From a virus, in IMG/VR virus record IMGVR_UViG_3300030106_000562, positions 1 to 40,368 of that record: a stretch of DNA of 40,368 bases; one strand, written 5' to 3'. The notes beneath the pieces are model-generated. The model did not search any database, was not told the origin of the DNA, and was given only the letters and a program-made list of their open reading frames with translations. Position 1 is the first letter of the stretch. The number at the start of each line of letters is the position of its first letter. Of the stretch, positions 12,923 through 21,938 are shown one piece after another. The translations under genes and the position numbers were made by a program.

Positions 12923-13138
12923 TTATTCCTCGTTTTTAACTAAAGTTTCGTGATATCCACCATCGTCATCATACCACCCATGATACACATTGTCAACAAC
13001 TTTCTGGCGGTGAATGATAAATGGTTCATCTTTGGTTCCCTTACCCTCGACCCGCTCTCCACTGAAGGTGCGGTATTTCATTGGGGAAAAGAACTCTTCC
13101 ATAAATCCCCGGTCAAAGGGGTGTACTGTCATCTTCAT
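12923..13138 (-). CDS. Small hypothetical early protein
   Basis: 71 aa. AGGAG with 6-base spacing before ATG 13138, inside the end of the resolvase-like gene. Aromatic and acidic content is high (YHGWYDDDGGYHETLVKNEE). There is no recognised domain. Confidence 0.65.
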   Translation of the reverse strand: MKMTVHPFDRGFMEEFFSPMKYRTFSGERVEGKGTKDEPFIIHRQKVVDNVYHGWYDDDGGYHETLVKNEE

Positions 13139-16470: not shown

Positions 16471-16515
16471 ACTACGGGCCTTGCAGGGCGTGTTATAGCG
16501 TTATCCTAGACGCAT

Positions 16516-16538
16516 AAAAAAACCCCGTCGAAACGGGG
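16516..16538 (-). terminator. Rho-independent terminator with UUCG loop
   Basis: On the minus strand: CCCCGT, TTCG loop, ACGGGG (16538-16523), then seven T (16522-16516). A 6-bp GC-rich stem capped by a UUCG tetraloop plus a U7 tract is a textbook terminator. It lies 28 bases after the gene 16566-17267 and ends the first early transcript. On the plus strand the tail is only ATAATAATATT, so it is weaker there. Confidence 0.9.
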
Positions 16539-16565
16539 CTTATAATAATATTAGACTTTTCTGAT

Positions 16566-17267
16566 TTAGTTACTTAGTGCGACTTTTTGCGCCCTCTTTT
16601 TACTTGCGCCGTGGGCCGGAAATCCGATTACATAACCGCGGTCTGATTTTGCACATATACCGCAACGGTCACAAGTAACCGCTTTGGAATTTACCGCCGG
16701 ACAGACTACCACCTTGCGCCCTTGCTCCGTTCTTTGCACCTTGGGCGCATCAATCGGCAAAATTGTAACCACCGGCAGACCGGTATCAACATATTCGTCT
16801 ACCTGATGCAAGCCATTAGCGGATAGATTGATTGTAAAGCCGTTTTCATTGGCTTGTTTAATTGCGCCTATATTGTGATCATTCAGGGCATGGTGGGTAT
16901 AAGTAAAACCATCCTTATCGCGATTCGCGTTGACTAGATCAGTCAACATTGGACGATGGATAAAGCCGTCCACATGGGGTAAATCACCGGCAACGTCGTG
17001 ACGCCATGTTTCGCCCTTTTTCAGACGGCGAACCTTTTTACAAAATCCGCGCCAGTCTGTCGTATTGGTGGACGTTCCATTATCTACCTTTTTCCATTGC
17101 CACGATACCGGGCCGACTTTGGCATAGCATCCCATATCTTTCAGCGGGCAATCATCCGGGCAAGATTTCGATTCGGTATAAGACCGAAACATATTACCGA
17201 CTTTAGCCATGTGACCGACGGCAGTTTTAACCGCGATATCTAGCGGGTTTTTCTCAAAAGGTAGCAT
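16566..17267 (-). CDS. Cysteine-rich phage protein, DUF7227/Gp88-like
   Basis: 233 aa. Metal-ligand-like Cys clusters: C36-x3-C40 and C47 in SCPDDCPLKDMGCYAK, and C189, C199, C202, C205 in VVCPAV...TCDRCGICAK, followed by GYVIGFPAHG. HVDGFIHRPML (98-108) and FTINLSANGLHQVDEY (144-159) are also family-like. The CPxxCPLK..CYA and C-x2-C-x2-C ends are typical of the phage/plasmid DUF7227 and Gp88 groups; function is unknown, with a metal or Fe-S site likely. AGGGA ribosome binding site upstream; last gene of the first early unit, ahead of the terminator. Confidence 0.75.
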   Translation of the reverse strand: MLPFEKNPLDIAVKTAVGHMAKVGNMFRSYTESKSCPDDCPLKDMGCYAKVGPVSWQWKKVDNGTSTNTTDWRGFCKKVRRLKKGETWRHDVAGDLPHVDGFIHRPMLTDLVNANRDKDGFTYTHHALNDHNIGAIKQANENGFTINLSANGLHQVDEYVDTGLPVVTILPIDAPKVQRTEQGRKVVVCPAVNSKAVTCDRCGICAKSDRGYVIGFPAHGASKKRAQKVALSN

Positions 17268-17269
17268 TT

Positions 17270-17503
17270 TTAAATTCCCTCAAGGTATGCGTTTTGTCGA
17301 TTTGCCCATTTTTTAGCGTCTGCCAGTTTTCGGAATGTTTTCTCATTCTCAAGAGCGCCGAATAGGTATTCGTTTAAATCCCAATCATTAGTATAGGGGT
17401 TCTGGGATATGATAAATTCATGTTCTGGAAAATATCCCTTAGCATAGCGTTTTGTCATAAACAAAAGGCCTTCGCGCACAGTGTAAGACTCGAATTTTAA
17501 CAT
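17270..17503 (-). CDS. Hypothetical early protein, 77 aa
   Basis: Starts at ATG 17503 with AGGAA 9 bases upstream; an upstream extension to 17542 would cover the repeat hairpin and is rejected. Aromatic-rich (GYFPEHEFIISQNPYTNDWD) with a helical C-terminus (TFRKLADAKKWANRQNAYLEG) that looks like the end of a small KTFAxLxDAxxWA domain seen in short phage and host proteins. The role is unknown. The stop is 2 bases from the next start. Confidence 0.68.
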   Translation of the reverse strand: MLKFESYTVREGLLFMTKRYAKGYFPEHEFIISQNPYTNDWDLNEYLFGALENEKTFRKLADAKKWANRQNAYLEGI

Positions 17504-17527
17504 TTTACTTTTCCTGTTAGTGGTTGC

Positions 17528-17573
17528 ACCCGAAAGCCCCACATTTAGCGGGGCTGTCAGGTCGATTGTGAGG
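17528..17573 (-). repeat. Repeat element copy B: hairpin between early genes
   Basis: Second copy of a 46-base element (see 18059-18104). Plus-strand ends are ACCCGAAA (17528-17535) and AGGTCGATTGTGAGG (17559-17573). Between them AGCCCC (17535-17540) pairs with GGGGCT (17550-17555). On the minus transcript it begins 5 bases after the stop of 17579-18034 and is followed by the next gene's ribosome binding site. Possible attenuator, processing or regulator site. Confidence 0.75.
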
Positions 17574-17578
17574 CTAGT

Positions 17579-18034
17579 CTAGCCGGAAAAATTAGAGTAT
17601 AAATCCTTTGACGCCAAAGTATCAAACATTTTATAAAGGATCACCGGGCCTGCATTGTCGCGGGTAAACATGAGAACCTTTCTGGCATCATGTAATTCCC
17701 TGCCGGTAACAGCGTCCACGAATGTATCATTCTTATAGGGGTTATACGTAGCCCTTTTCCATCCTGAGCCGCTCAGGTTTTCGAAATCATCGCGAATATC
17801 CTGTATCAATCTAGGGTTTATTGTAACGTAGTTCTCCCCTTTTGACGGGTAACCTGTCACTCTAGCGTGGACATTCTTCCTCCCTGTTTCCCGTACCTTG
17901 CGCTGACCCGCTTTGGATACGTTGAAGCGCACATTTTCCAGCAGTACACCATCGGCATGGGCGTATACTTTACCGCTTTGTTGGACGCTGAATAGGCGCT
18001 TGTGGAGGTTAAAATAGACTTGTGATCTTTTCAT
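17579..18034 (-). CDS. Conserved early phage protein, unknown function
   Basis: 151 aa, basic. Starts MKRSQVYFNLHKRLFSVQ, continues with a short strand-rich region (GKVYAHADGVLLENVRFNVS; KAGQRKVRETGRKNVHARV), and ends with DARKVLMFTRDNAGPVILYK. The MKR..YFNLHK..FSV beginning is familiar from other phage early regions, without function. AGGAA ribosome binding site 9 bases before ATG 18034. Flanked on both sides by the two copies of the repeat hairpin, which makes its expression look individually controlled. Confidence 0.7.
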   Translation of the reverse strand: MKRSQVYFNLHKRLFSVQQSGKVYAHADGVLLENVRFNVSKAGQRKVRETGRKNVHARVTGYPSKGENYVTINPRLIQDIRDDFENLSGSGWKRATYNPYKNDTFVDAVTGRELHDARKVLMFTRDNAGPVILYKMFDTLASKDLYSNFSG

Positions 18035-18058
18035 TGTCTTGATTCCTATGGTTTGTTT

Positions 18059-18104
18059 ACCCGAAAACCCCGGATAGACCGGGGTTCTTAGGTTGATTGT
18101 GAGG
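18059..18104 (-). repeat. Repeat element copy A: hairpin between early genes
   Basis: First copy of the 46-base element. Plus-strand ends are ACCCGAAA (18059-18066) and AGGTTGATTGTGAGG (18090-18104). AACCCCGG (18066-18073) pairs with CCGGGGTT (18079-18086) around a 5-base loop. It begins 5 bases after the stop of 18110-18277 on the minus strand, as copy B does after its gene. A67-T85 of this stem is G-C in copy B, a compensatory change. Confidence 0.75.
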
Positions 18105-18109
18105 GCGGT

Positions 18110-18277
18110 TCAGTCGCCTATATCAGCGTATGATTCGTCGCCATTGTAGTAGATATCGTCCCATTTATCCATCTGGGATTCTTTCTCACAATCAGCGTGG
18201 TAGTAGTTGAAATCTGAAGTCATACCGGCCTCCGGCGTGTCTTCAATGTATTCTTTACAGTATATGCATTTGGGCAT
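18110..18277 (-). CDS. 55-aa zinc-finger-like protein, first early gene
   Basis: ATG 18277 with AGGA 8 bases upstream, TGA at 18110-18112. Contains C4-x2-C7 and H27-x2-C30 (PKCIYCKEYIED, YYHADCEKES), a one-zinc CCHC-like or zinc-ribbon half, then an acidic tail (DDIYYNGDESYADIGD). The first gene transcribed on the minus arm, so a host-takeover or regulatory protein is plausible. Not longer than 60 codons and easy to miss. Confidence 0.72.
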   Translation of the reverse strand: MPKCIYCKEYIEDTPEAGMTSDFNYYHADCEKESQMDKWDDIYYNGDESYADIGD

Positions 18278-18377
18278 GATTACATTCCTATATGAGTGAG
18301 TAGTAGCCGAACCTTACCACACAAATGGGCATTGTGCGAATAGTGTTTTAATGAGGGTATAAGTGTAGTTTATGACA

Positions 18378-18407
18378 TTCATACCACACACTCACACACC
18401 AGTTCAA
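18378..18407 (-). promoter_or_regulatory. Weak candidate promoter for first early unit
   Basis: On the minus strand TTGAAC (18407-18402), 18-base spacer, TATGAA (18383-18378) preceded by TGG as an extended -10. About 4 of 6 matches in each box. It would start near 18371, about 94 bases before ATG 18277. Nothing better was found in this gap. Confidence 0.35.
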
Positions 18408-18678
18408 ACCAACCGGTTCCGAACCCGACACTGTAATGACAGTCTAACCCGACAACCCGGTAACGGCGTAAAGTCTTGCACTATCTATGGCAAAATAAAA
18501 TCCGCCGATTCTGGTCTACTGCTCAACTGAACCCTGCTGGTCTGGCCTCCTTACATGGGCGCGTGGCGTGGGCGCGTTAGGCGACCCCCGGCGACCCCCT
18601 TTTTTTCTAGCGCAATGGCGTTATATTGTATCCACTCACCATCAGGACATTTTACCCTTTATAAGAATTCTCTAATAT
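18408..18678. other. Divergent control region: candidate origin or packaging site
   Basis: No gene on either strand from 18278 to 18678. Visible: palindrome AACCGGTT (18411-18418); AACCCGACA twice (18422-18430, 18446-18454) flanking CTGT-aatg-ACAG; CTGGTCT twice (18511-18517, 18537-18543); GGGCGCG twice (18557-18563, 18570-18576); tandem GGCGACCCCC (18580-18599) followed by seven T. The GC-rich 18556-18599 patch stands out from its surroundings. A possible -10 (TATATT, 18622-18627) for the late operon has no good -35. Its site between early and late arms and just upstream of the terminase block suits an origin, packaging site or late-control region. Confidence 0.5.
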
Positions 18679-20274
18679 ATGGCTGACTTAAAATCAATAG
18701 GTGGATATTTGTCTGATGCTATCCAACCTATAAAAAGAATCCCAAAAGTTTATCAGGAACAGGTTGAATCCGGTATGGATTTAATGGGTTCTGATAGCCT
18801 GTTAGATAAAGGGTTGGGTGCTTTACAGTATGTAAGCGCCCCGATTACAGCGCCATTTGAGGCTTTAAGAGAAGAGCCGATCAAGGACGCTTTGGTATCA
18901 TTTGGGGTTGATCCTGATACAGCCCGAAATGCAAGCATGATTGTCGGCATGGGGCTTGACGTTGCATTACCCGCAACATGGGCAAAAATGGGATTGGATT
19001 TCCCCAGAGAAATTGGTACAATTTTGGGGGCAGTATATAACCCCGGAAAATTCTCAGGAAACGCCCCCAACTATCTGAAAGGATATTACGGTGGGGATCA
19101 GGCCCAGAAAGCGGCTGTAGGTACTGGGGCGTTAAAAACAATAGCAAACACAATAAAGCAATACATTAGCCCCCAAGCAAGTGCAAATTTTAATGTGGCC
19201 GGTTTAACAGTAGGCGCTCAAAAGATTGTTGCAGACTCTATGGATGAGATGAAGCAGTTAGATAATCTTTATAAATCTAGCGGTGGCAAACTATCCGATG
19301 CCGATATGGACAGGTATGCAGAGTTGGGGAAAGTTGTATCTGGCCAGATTGGATATAATCTTCTTATAGGGAAACAGGGTGGTGCAAATATCCCCCTGAT
19401 TGATAAGTGGAAAGATGCTGTATATCATAAGATAGAAAATTTCACCCCAGATCAGTTTAAGTCTATCAGGGAGAAAGGGACGGAAATAGGTCAGCAAGCC
19501 TCAGATAAAACAATGGAAGAGGCTTACGACATTATAACTAATACTTGGAAAAGCCGATTCGCTAAAAGCCCCTTAGACGAAAAAACCCTCATGGCCGTAA
19601 AGAAAAATCGGGGGCCAAAATCTACAGGTGTACACGACCTTGACGTTATAACCTCAGATCAAGGAAAACTTTTAGATGCCGTTTTGACCGCTAATGATGG
19701 CAACTTCTCATCTGTAACCGCATTGGAAAGTGCTTTAAAATCCGCCGCTAAAACAGCAGATGGCAAGAAATATAATGTAATAAAAACCACGGATGACGGA
19801 GTATGGATACAGGTATCCGGTTATCGTGGTTCAGGATTTGTAGAGGGTGGCACAAACGCCATCATTAAAGTAAGCCCGGACAGGAAATACACCATATTCA
19901 CAAGTGATGAGCATGATATGATGGGTATTGTTCCCCCGGGTTATGACAGGCTTGTTACGGTTCTCCCACCTTGGGGGGTAGATAAGTTTGCCAAAGTAAG
20001 AAATAAGGGCGTTAGACACCCCAGAAGCAAGGTTCAGGCGGCTAAAGAATATTTGAAGAGGGTTAAAACTGAGCCTAAACCCAAGTCAGAAAGGAGCGCA
20101 ACTCCCAAACCTAGAGAGTCTTTACCCGCTAGATTAACTAACGCCCAAAAAGCGGTTGCAGAAGAAATGGCGGGATATAAAGCCCCTATGGGTGCAAGGG
20201 AATATGGTAGGTTTGCCGCAAGGAGAGCCGCCCCAATAGGAGCAGGAGGCTTGTTGTACTACGATGAGGACTGA
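18679..20274 (+). CDS. First late gene, unknown; possible ejected protein
   Basis: 531 aa. No catalytic motif was recognised. Features: amphipathic N-terminal 100 residues (YLSDAIQPIKRIPKVYQEQV), a hydrophobic Ala/Gly-rich segment (TARNASMIVGMGLDVALPAT), a beta-rich domain at about 340-450 (KYNVIKTTDDGVWIQVSGYR; GFVEGGTNAIIKV; DRKYTIFTSDEHDMMGIVPP), and a basic Pro-rich region at about 460-500. No clear ribosome binding site. It precedes terS, where an extra gene is unusual. A virion-carried protein with a folded C-terminal domain is a guess from composition and position. The end overlaps terS by 11 bases. Confidence 0.7.
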   Translation: MADLKSIGGYLSDAIQPIKRIPKVYQEQVESGMDLMGSDSLLDKGLGALQYVSAPITAPFEALREEPIKDALVSFGVDPDTARNASMIVGMGLDVALPATWAKMGLDFPREIGTILGAVYNPGKFSGNAPNYLKGYYGGDQAQKAAVGTGALKTIANTIKQYISPQASANFNVAGLTVGAQKIVADSMDEMKQLDNLYKSSGGKLSDADMDRYAELGKVVSGQIGYNLLIGKQGGANIPLIDKWKDAVYHKIENFTPDQFKSIREKGTEIGQQASDKTMEEAYDIITNTWKSRFAKSPLDEKTLMAVKKNRGPKSTGVHDLDVITSDQGKLLDAVLTANDGNFSSVTALESALKSAAKTADGKKYNVIKTTDDGVWIQVSGYRGSGFVEGGTNAIIKVSPDRKYTIFTSDEHDMMGIVPPGYDRLVTVLPPWGVDKFAKVRNKGVRHPRSKVQAAKEYLKRVKTEPKPKSERSATPKPRESLPARLTNAQKAVAEEMAGYKAPMGAREYGRFAARRAAPIGAGGLLYYDED

Positions 20275-20639: not shown

Positions 20640-21938
20640 ATGGCCACTCCACCACTTGATCCTGAATTACAAAAAGAGATATACAGGCTTCGGCAAGTAG
20701 AGCATTTATCTGCCCCAGAAATACAAAAGATTACCGGGGTTAGCACCAAGATGGTGACAAAGTATGGCGGCCCACCAATTCCAGAATCAGAAAAGAAAAG
20801 AAAATCTGCTTTACAGCAAAAACAAATAGAGAATATAAGACAAAACGATGAGGCAATATCGGCTAGGACTGGAAAAAAAATAGAAGATATAACAGAAAAA
20901 GACAGAAGAGAATTTATACAGCATCAAAGTAATAAAAAAGCAAACCCACACAACAGTCAACTTAAATCTCTTAGAAAATTTATAAAAAGATCATTTCCAG
21001 AAAACTGGAAAGAGATATTAAAAGATTCTGATGGCAAAAATAGAAAATTAGCCGATGTATTATCTAATCCTATTATAAGAAGCAATTTTGGAAATTTAAT
21101 TGATGACGCGATATCTGATGGGATGGATATTGTTAGCGGCGCAACAAAGCAAAGCGAAAAAAGTACAAAACTGCTAAGTCAATTAAGAAAGGATATGAAA
21201 TCTTCTGTATCAACTTTGGTTGATTTAGGAGAGGAAAGTGTTAAAGATACTTTATCACGGCACAAGGCTAGGGAGTTTTCTTACGCTAAAGGAGGGGGTC
21301 AGCCAGATTCCGATGATTGGAAGAGAGGCAGGCAATGGGTAGATAGTTTACTCCCGGCGGAATATGTTGAAGCCGAAGGCCCGATACAACTTAAGCACAT
21401 AATGAACACCGCATTGCGTACACCAGAGGGGCAAATAGATGAAAATGCTCGGCGCATATATCATCACAGAAATGAACTTGGTCAAGGTTATCCGCACACA
21501 TTTAATCAGAATGATTTTGAAATAGTTTCAGAAGAAGCGCATAAAAAAATACACGCTGATCCATCGTTTACAGGAAGGCCTCCTATGGGGCCAGATGATC
21601 CGGGTTTTGTTAGAAGAACTATACTAAATCTTAAAGATATTCCCGGTGTGGCAAAAGCAGGAAAAGTTGCGGCAAGAGCATTGCCATTCTTAGGAGCCGC
21701 CTTTGATGCTCAAGCCGCGAGTGAACACTTCTCCAAGGATAATGAAGTGTTGGGTATTTTAGCAGGGGCGCAAGCAATACCTGTTTTGGGAGATATATTG
21801 GGAATACCTTTAGCGACGGCGGAAGGAATAGGTACGGTTATTAACAGAGATAAGGAGCGGATGGAAGAACTAAATAGACAGAGAGGTTTAATTGGTTATA
21901 CTCCACCAAAAAGATATAGAGGCTTCGGCGGTCTATAA
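20640..21938 (+). CDS. Accessory gene between terS and terL; HTH plus HNH-like
   Basis: 432 aa. Residues 15-45 resemble a helix-turn-helix (YRLRQVEHLSAPEIQKITGV, then STKMVTKYGG). A long Lys/Ser-rich helical middle follows. Residues about 265-320 have HHRNELGQGY...DFEIVSEEAHKKIH, like a toxin-type HNH/LHH nuclease. The C-terminus has hydrophobic Ala/Gly-rich stretches (LPFLGAAFDAQAAS; VLGILAGAQAIPVLGDILGI) like membrane-inserting proteins. Bases about 20800-21250 look richer in A than neighbouring genes. Probably a late-acquired moron or virion-delivered nuclease; motif calls are tentative. Confidence 0.65.
   Translation: MATPPLDPELQKEIYRLRQVEHLSAPEIQKITGVSTKMVTKYGGPPIPESEKKRKSALQQKQIENIRQNDEAISARTGKKIEDITEKDRREFIQHQSNKKANPHNSQLKSLRKFIKRSFPENWKEILKDSDGKNRKLADVLSNPIIRSNFGNLIDDAISDGMDIVSGATKQSEKSTKLLSQLRKDMKSSVSTLVDLGEESVKDTLSRHKAREFSYAKGGGQPDSDDWKRGRQWVDSLLPAEYVEAEGPIQLKHIMNTALRTPEGQIDENARRIYHHRNELGQGYPHTFNQNDFEIVSEEAHKKIHADPSFTGRPPMGPDDPGFVRRTILNLKDIPGVAKAGKVAARALPFLGAAFDAQAASEHFSKDNEVLGILAGAQAIPVLGDILGIPLATAEGIGTVINRDKERMEELNRQRGLIGYTPPKRYRGFGGL

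Follow-up and report, generated by a model that had tools for sequence, protein, structure and literature searches.

We identified a conserved RNA element, present in two copies in the window (the whole stretch of DNA analysed, a 40,368-base virus record), that recurs between early genes of marine phages and is absent from Rfam 15 and from the named relatives checked. That a structured family exists and is conserved we consider very nearly certain. Judging from its sequence and by analogy with known systems, there is about an even chance that the element acts as a leaky internal transcription terminator and 3'-end stabiliser within a promoter-less, modular gene-exchange cassette.

Both copies lie on the minus strand and are 46 nt long. 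Copy 1 (18104-18059) reads TGA-ACCGC-CCTCACAATCAACCTAAGAACCCCGGTCTATCCGGGGTTTTCGGGT and copy 2 (17573-17528) reads TAG-ACTAG-CCTCACAATCGACCTGACAGCCCCGCTAAATGTGGGGCTTTCGGGT. Each starts exactly 5 nt past the stop codon of an open reading frame (of 55 aa and 151 aa, respectively) and the start-to-start spacing of the conserved boxes is 31 in both, all as the first-pass annotation had described. The motif CCTCACAATCRACCT had exactly two perfect matches across the window, which were the two copies. The predicted folding energy was -22.7 kcal/mol for copy 1 and -25.9 kcal/mol for copy 2 (z = -5.2 and -4.9 against dinucleotide shuffles, with 0/200 shuffles as good). The stem-loop drawn in the annotation did fold, but the stem was longer than drawn: below a 7-bp apical stem and an internal mismatch there is a possible basal stem of 5-6 bp. 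The compensatory base change it had reported was also present, although as two changed pairs rather than one (A-U/G-C at columns 20/38 and G-C/C-G at columns 26/32), with an additional G-C/G-U change in the apical stem at columns 25/33. The parts of the two copies and the operon that contains them are as follows.

18110..18277, minus strand: first early gene, 55 aa, CxxC-containing, no family match
18094..18104, minus strand: copy 1 single-stranded 5' box CCTCACAATCA, 5 nt past the TGA of the upstream gene
18088..18093, minus strand: copy 1 basal 5' arm ACCTAA, which could pair with the capped tail in read-through RNA (weak covariation)
18067..18085, minus strand: copy 1 apical stem-loop ACCCCGG-TCTAT-CCGGGGT (folding and covariation)
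18059..18067, minus strand: copy 1 short U-run and cap TTTTCGGGT
18035..18058, minus strand: copy 1 A/C-rich spacer and ribosome-binding site of gene 17579-18034
17579..18034, minus strand: 151-aa gene between the copies, Phage_L5_gp82 family (PF25735)
17563..17573, minus strand: copy 2 single-stranded 5' box CCTCACAATCG, 5 nt past the TAG of gene 17579-18034
17557..17562, minus strand: copy 2 basal 5' arm ACCTGA (folding; weak covariation)
17536..17554, minus strand: copy 2 apical stem-loop GCCCCGC-TAAAT-GTGGGGC (folding and covariation)
17528..17536, minus strand: copy 2 short U-run and cap CTTTCGGGT
17504..17527, minus strand: copy 2 A/C-rich spacer and ribosome-binding site (AGGAAAAG), serving the ATG at 17503
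17270..17503, minus strand: 77-aa gene downstream of copy 2
16566..17267, minus strand: 233-aa gene, DUF7227 (PF23872), last gene of the operon
16513..16541, minus strand: canonical operon-end terminator with a T7 run and without a GGG cap, in contrast to both elements

In the operon, genes 1 and 2 are each followed by a copy of the element, and gene 3 by the DUF7227 gene and then the canonical terminator; gene maps here and below are simple ORF calls, not curated annotation. The window also encodes a large terminase, a DnaB-like helicase and a ribonucleotide reductase. A 432-aa protein (20640-21938) gave a sub-threshold match to sigma-70 region 4 (E 6e-5, under the curated cut-off). The Phage_L5_gp82 family has relatives in 711 phage records, mostly mycobacteriophages. 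A divergent intergenic region (18277-18500 and 18620-18680), likely to hold the early and late control regions, has long stretches in common with contig L001 (ACACTATTCGCACAATGCCCATTTRTGTGGTAAGGTT...), and a stretch near AAAATGTCCTGATGGTGAGTG in the same region also occurs in contig L094.

Related contigs were gathered via a neighbouring structural-side protein, the terminase and DNA patterns, and a covariance model was built from 11 copies, in whose alignment the CAATC of the 5' box was invariant. This model recovered held-out copies at E = 4e-12 to 1e-7 (among others two in L128, the second copy in L119, and those in L006/L112, L008/L009, L034 and L037), so the pair in the window is not a product of chance. 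The first-pass annotation had set the absence of copies from relatives as grounds for giving up its proposal, and many were found. The non-redundant set comprises 48 copies of two sequence types, from uncultivated phage contigs of mostly marine origin and from at least two phage lineages, many of the copies being so closely related that copy counts do not equal independent events. A relaxed pattern that ignored the upstream arm matched 98 places, 82 of them within ~45 nt past a stop codon; some pattern matches were dropped as unfolded chance hits. Type 1, the type of the window group, carries the CAATCAACCTGA box with AACCACAACAAAGG downstream. Type 2 reads CCCAACCAAACAAGCCCGC-UUUAUG-UGGGCUUUUUGGGU, has a strong AGGAGG ribosome-binding site and is hosted by phages with a different portal and terminase from the window group. 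Contigs carried 1-3 copies, placed after the first genes. Three more capped hairpins (GGCCCGCTTATGTGGGTCTTTTTGGTATC) lie between genes at 190-832 of contig L139, which has an unrelated terminase; they adjoin a gene of phrog_2554, the family of the window's DUF7227 gene, and are possibly a third type of element.

No known RNA family was matched: a search of the window against Rfam 15 gave no match above the gathering score, and a permissive search gave sub-threshold matches only. There was no credible match in Vibrio phages 1.262.O and VP506, Pelagibacter phage Baldr, Marinobacter phage AS1, two Manatee Spring podoviruses or DSL-LC05, some of these sequences being partial. Hairpins similar to the apical one in phage N4 and Vibrio phage 1.275.O were rejected, as they are ordinary terminators without the cap; the N4 hairpin (13106-13128, L185 1506-1528) lies between gp27 and gp28 and reads GCCCACTTTATGTGGGC, then a T-run with no cap.

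The proposal that the RNA structure is under selection was backed by covariation in the relatives, strongly for the apical stem. Across 41 aligned copies of both types, in an alignment fitted to the model and so biased towards its structure, 88% of cells paired and there were 45 double changes versus 16 in shuffles (0/500). The type 1 apical 7-bp stem was paired in 27/27 copies with 22 double changes (0/1000 shuffles). For the type 1 basal stem 87% of cells were paired (8/1000 shuffles) with 6 double changes (165/1000 shuffles), and two positions between the apical and basal stems behaved as a mismatch. For type 2, covariation backed the apical stem alone. The basal extension ACC/GGU is conserved, yet weakly supported by covariation, and a fold check of basal pairing on copies not chosen for ACC was uninformative because the C-rich composition of the upstream sequence is enough for it to pair with GGU (92% in the shuffled control). 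From these alignments the basal stem is likely, but not proven, to be real in type 1.

Every copy with readable flanks sat between two same-strand ORFs, usually in the spacer behind the first short gene of an early operon. The distance from the stop codon to the stem (CCCG) was 20-27 nt in 42/46 copies and from the stop codon to the ATG 72-92 nt in 44/45. Type 2 elements follow the first gene pointing away from a small ORF on the opposite strand, the spacing being similar from contig to contig; this ORF was the terminase small subunit in both contigs tested (L173 and L164), and in many contigs a sigma-70-like promoter lies ~20-45 nt before that first gene. Ahead of the element itself there was no promoter enrichment, with a sigma-70 site of at least 10/12 in the preceding 75 nt in 2/41 copies versus 4% of control windows, and the room after the element is too small for a promoter. 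A promoter-like TTGATA-18-TATACT was seen at 17625-17596 on the minus strand, immediately ahead of copy 2 and still within the 3' end of gene 17579-18034; it did not recur at other copies. A phage-polymerase promoter was ruled out, as the conserved part folds, covaries and occurs only in transcript orientation past stop codons, and a REP/MITE-like mobile repeat was ruled out by the single orientation and the restriction to gene junctions. The lack of promoter enrichment also ruled out a combined promoter and terminator as in the PeSLs (promoter early stem-loops), mobile cassettes with a regulatory role in T4-type phages (Arbiol 2010 and Comeau 2014, as cited in PMC4503421). Like our element, PeSLs are intergenic stem-loops repeated between short variable phage genes and tied to gene shuffling; they differ in containing an early promoter, which the element's cassette lacks, and in the phages that carry them, and the element further stands apart in its 1-3 copies per contig behind the first genes.

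The genes flanking the element belonged to 45 protein families in 34 upstream/downstream combinations over 45 junctions. An L5-gp82-like gene was followed by the element and then by any of five different gene families, a 107-aa MHPIE family by the element and then three different families, and in contig L004 a homologue of the 55-aa first gene was followed by the element and then a different gene. In L157, L098, L106 and L112 there was no recognisable element ahead of the gp82-like gene. Ten genes of the first-early slot were tested and gave no convincing family match. Copies with a common upstream gene family had 5' boxes more alike (76-83% versus 64%) and those with a common downstream family had a somewhat more similar apical loop and 3' part, the pairs in both comparisons not being independent. 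This fits gene exchange at the element; element sequence is modestly linked to the flanking gene, and it is therefore from the gene combinations that we infer recombination there. The first-pass annotation had suggested a regulator or attenuator set controlling single early genes. At the sequence level the early-operon junctions, the terminator-like stems with a weakened U-tract and the lack of an own promoter support such a set, but because the flanking genes are shuffled around the element it is a modular cassette rather than a one-gene control device.

Two other readings draw on the same gene arrangement. The element could be a homology linker only, whose copies spread by recombination and were kept since a crossover there swaps genes harmlessly, the fold having no function. 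The many gene combinations and the presence or absence of the element before one gene family, depending on the phage, agree with this, but compensatory changes keep the stem paired as its sequence changes and a pure linker would not need pairing, leaving this reading only a slim chance. It is also improbable that the element is a translation insulator, with a hairpin that stops the upstream context folding onto the next ribosome-binding site so that any gene behind it is translated equally and transcription is unaffected. The near-fixed distance from stem to ATG, the G-poor spacer before the ribosome-binding site and the unrelated genes on either side would suit an insulator, which however leaves unexplained both the invariant U-run after the stem and the preference for first gene junctions.

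The apical 7-bp stem runs directly into U3-U5, as in an intrinsic (Rho-independent) terminator, and a terminator discriminant modelled on the published formula was above 0 for all copies. The element shares a GC-rich stem with U directly after it with the canonical terminators of the same phages (16541-16513 in the window). Those terminators carry 6-8 U, are uncapped and in the window stand at the operon end, whereas the element has 3-5 U, is capped by GGU and lies inside the operon; in these phages T6-T8 hairpins were GGG-capped in 0/16 and T4-T5 hairpins in 29/41. Three or four U followed by CGGG make a poor U-tract. In the 8 nt past the stem the predicted RNA-DNA hybrid was -6.4 to -11.8 kcal/mol for the element versus -1.8 to -3.4 kcal/mol for the phages' full terminators, and the weak hybrid over the ~8-nt tail expected of an intrinsic terminator was thus not found at the element. 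A strong RNA-DNA hybrid is expected in the capped tails, so termination would be partial at best and may not take place at the hairpin at all. Termination does not need the GGU past the U-run to be conserved, which suggests a role for it in the read-through RNA. As expected of an internal terminator, the element lies between closely spaced genes of the same operon without promoter enrichment, and the operon in the window ends at 16541.

RNase III sites between phage T7 early genes split the early transcript, and the element resembles them as a hairpin between early genes in one transcript, although its stem is shorter and is followed by a U-run. It may be asked whether the element is an RNA-processing site, at which RNase III cuts the long interrupted hairpin or RNase E cuts the A/C-rich flank to give stable monocistronic early mRNAs without termination. 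The placement between early genes, a stem of ~14 bp with an internal mismatch if the basal part forms, a conserved GGU cap that exists only in read-through RNA and the poor U-tract are all consistent with processing. However, the stem is short for RNase III, the basal pairing is weakly supported and the invariant U3-U5 straight after a GC stem exceeds what processing needs, and we regard this reading as rather unlikely. Very improbable, in our judgement, is a conditional terminator that stops polymerase efficiently early on, until the conserved CAATCAACC box is recognised by an antitermination factor of the phage, which then permits read-through. In type 1 this box is conserved while neighbouring bases vary, and the early-operon location would suit such control, but type 2 lacks the box, no antiterminator gene was identified and a tight terminator would need a stronger U-tract.

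Leaky internal termination has a close counterpart in clostridial operons, whose internal terminators have fewer U, a U-tract paired with 5' sequence, a mid-stem mismatch and measured partial termination (PMC9045158). There, termination changed with the length of poly(U), two three-U tails giving 9% and 33%, for instance (PMC9045158). Like the stem-loops of the Ruminiclostridium ABC-importer operons (PMC9045158), the phage element follows a 5'-proximal operon gene, has fewer U than canonical terminators, a U-tract that can pair with upstream bases and a mid-stem mismatch, and is predicted to give an excess of upstream mRNA. In contrast to those stem-loops, for which termination was measured, the phage element is a predicted terminator, and its copies make up a single conserved sequence family that bears a GGU cap and sits, within a fixed cassette, between many unrelated genes. 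In E. coli, termination behind a translated gene depends on the distance from stop codon to terminator: past a threshold of ~27 nt, a ribosome sitting at the stop codon ceases to obstruct folding of the terminator (PMC4824070). The element's stop-to-stem distance is close to this range, which by analogy may likewise govern its termination.

We propose that the element is part of a fixed ~75-nt cassette comprising, ~5 nt past a stop codon, a single-stranded C/A-rich box, a GC stem-loop, 3-5 U with a conserved GGU cap and, as its 3' portion, an A/C-rich spacer, a ribosome-binding site and an ATG. RNA polymerase would stop some of the time in the short U-run, so that mRNA of the first early gene or genes would be more abundant and better protected than that of later genes in the operon. 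Any polymerase passing the GGU would make a longer hairpin, a possible selective reason for the cap, and transcribe to the full terminator at the operon end. The spacer is alike between many unrelated genes and may therefore also serve as a homology patch where short early genes are exchanged as modules.

More tentatively, this promoter-less "plug-in" cassette of capped-U-run hairpin and ribosome-binding site may be the standard junction after the first early gene in at least two lineages of uncultivated marine phages, allowing unrelated short host-takeover and counter-defence genes to be swapped at constant mRNA dose and translation. If this is right, a short RNA signature would give a search handle for the hypervariable first-early-gene slot, the expected site of host-takeover and counter-defence genes, in uncultivated ocean phages, and the natural series of hairpins, with its compensatory changes and its variation in U-run length and cap, would offer a means of probing partial termination behind a translated gene.
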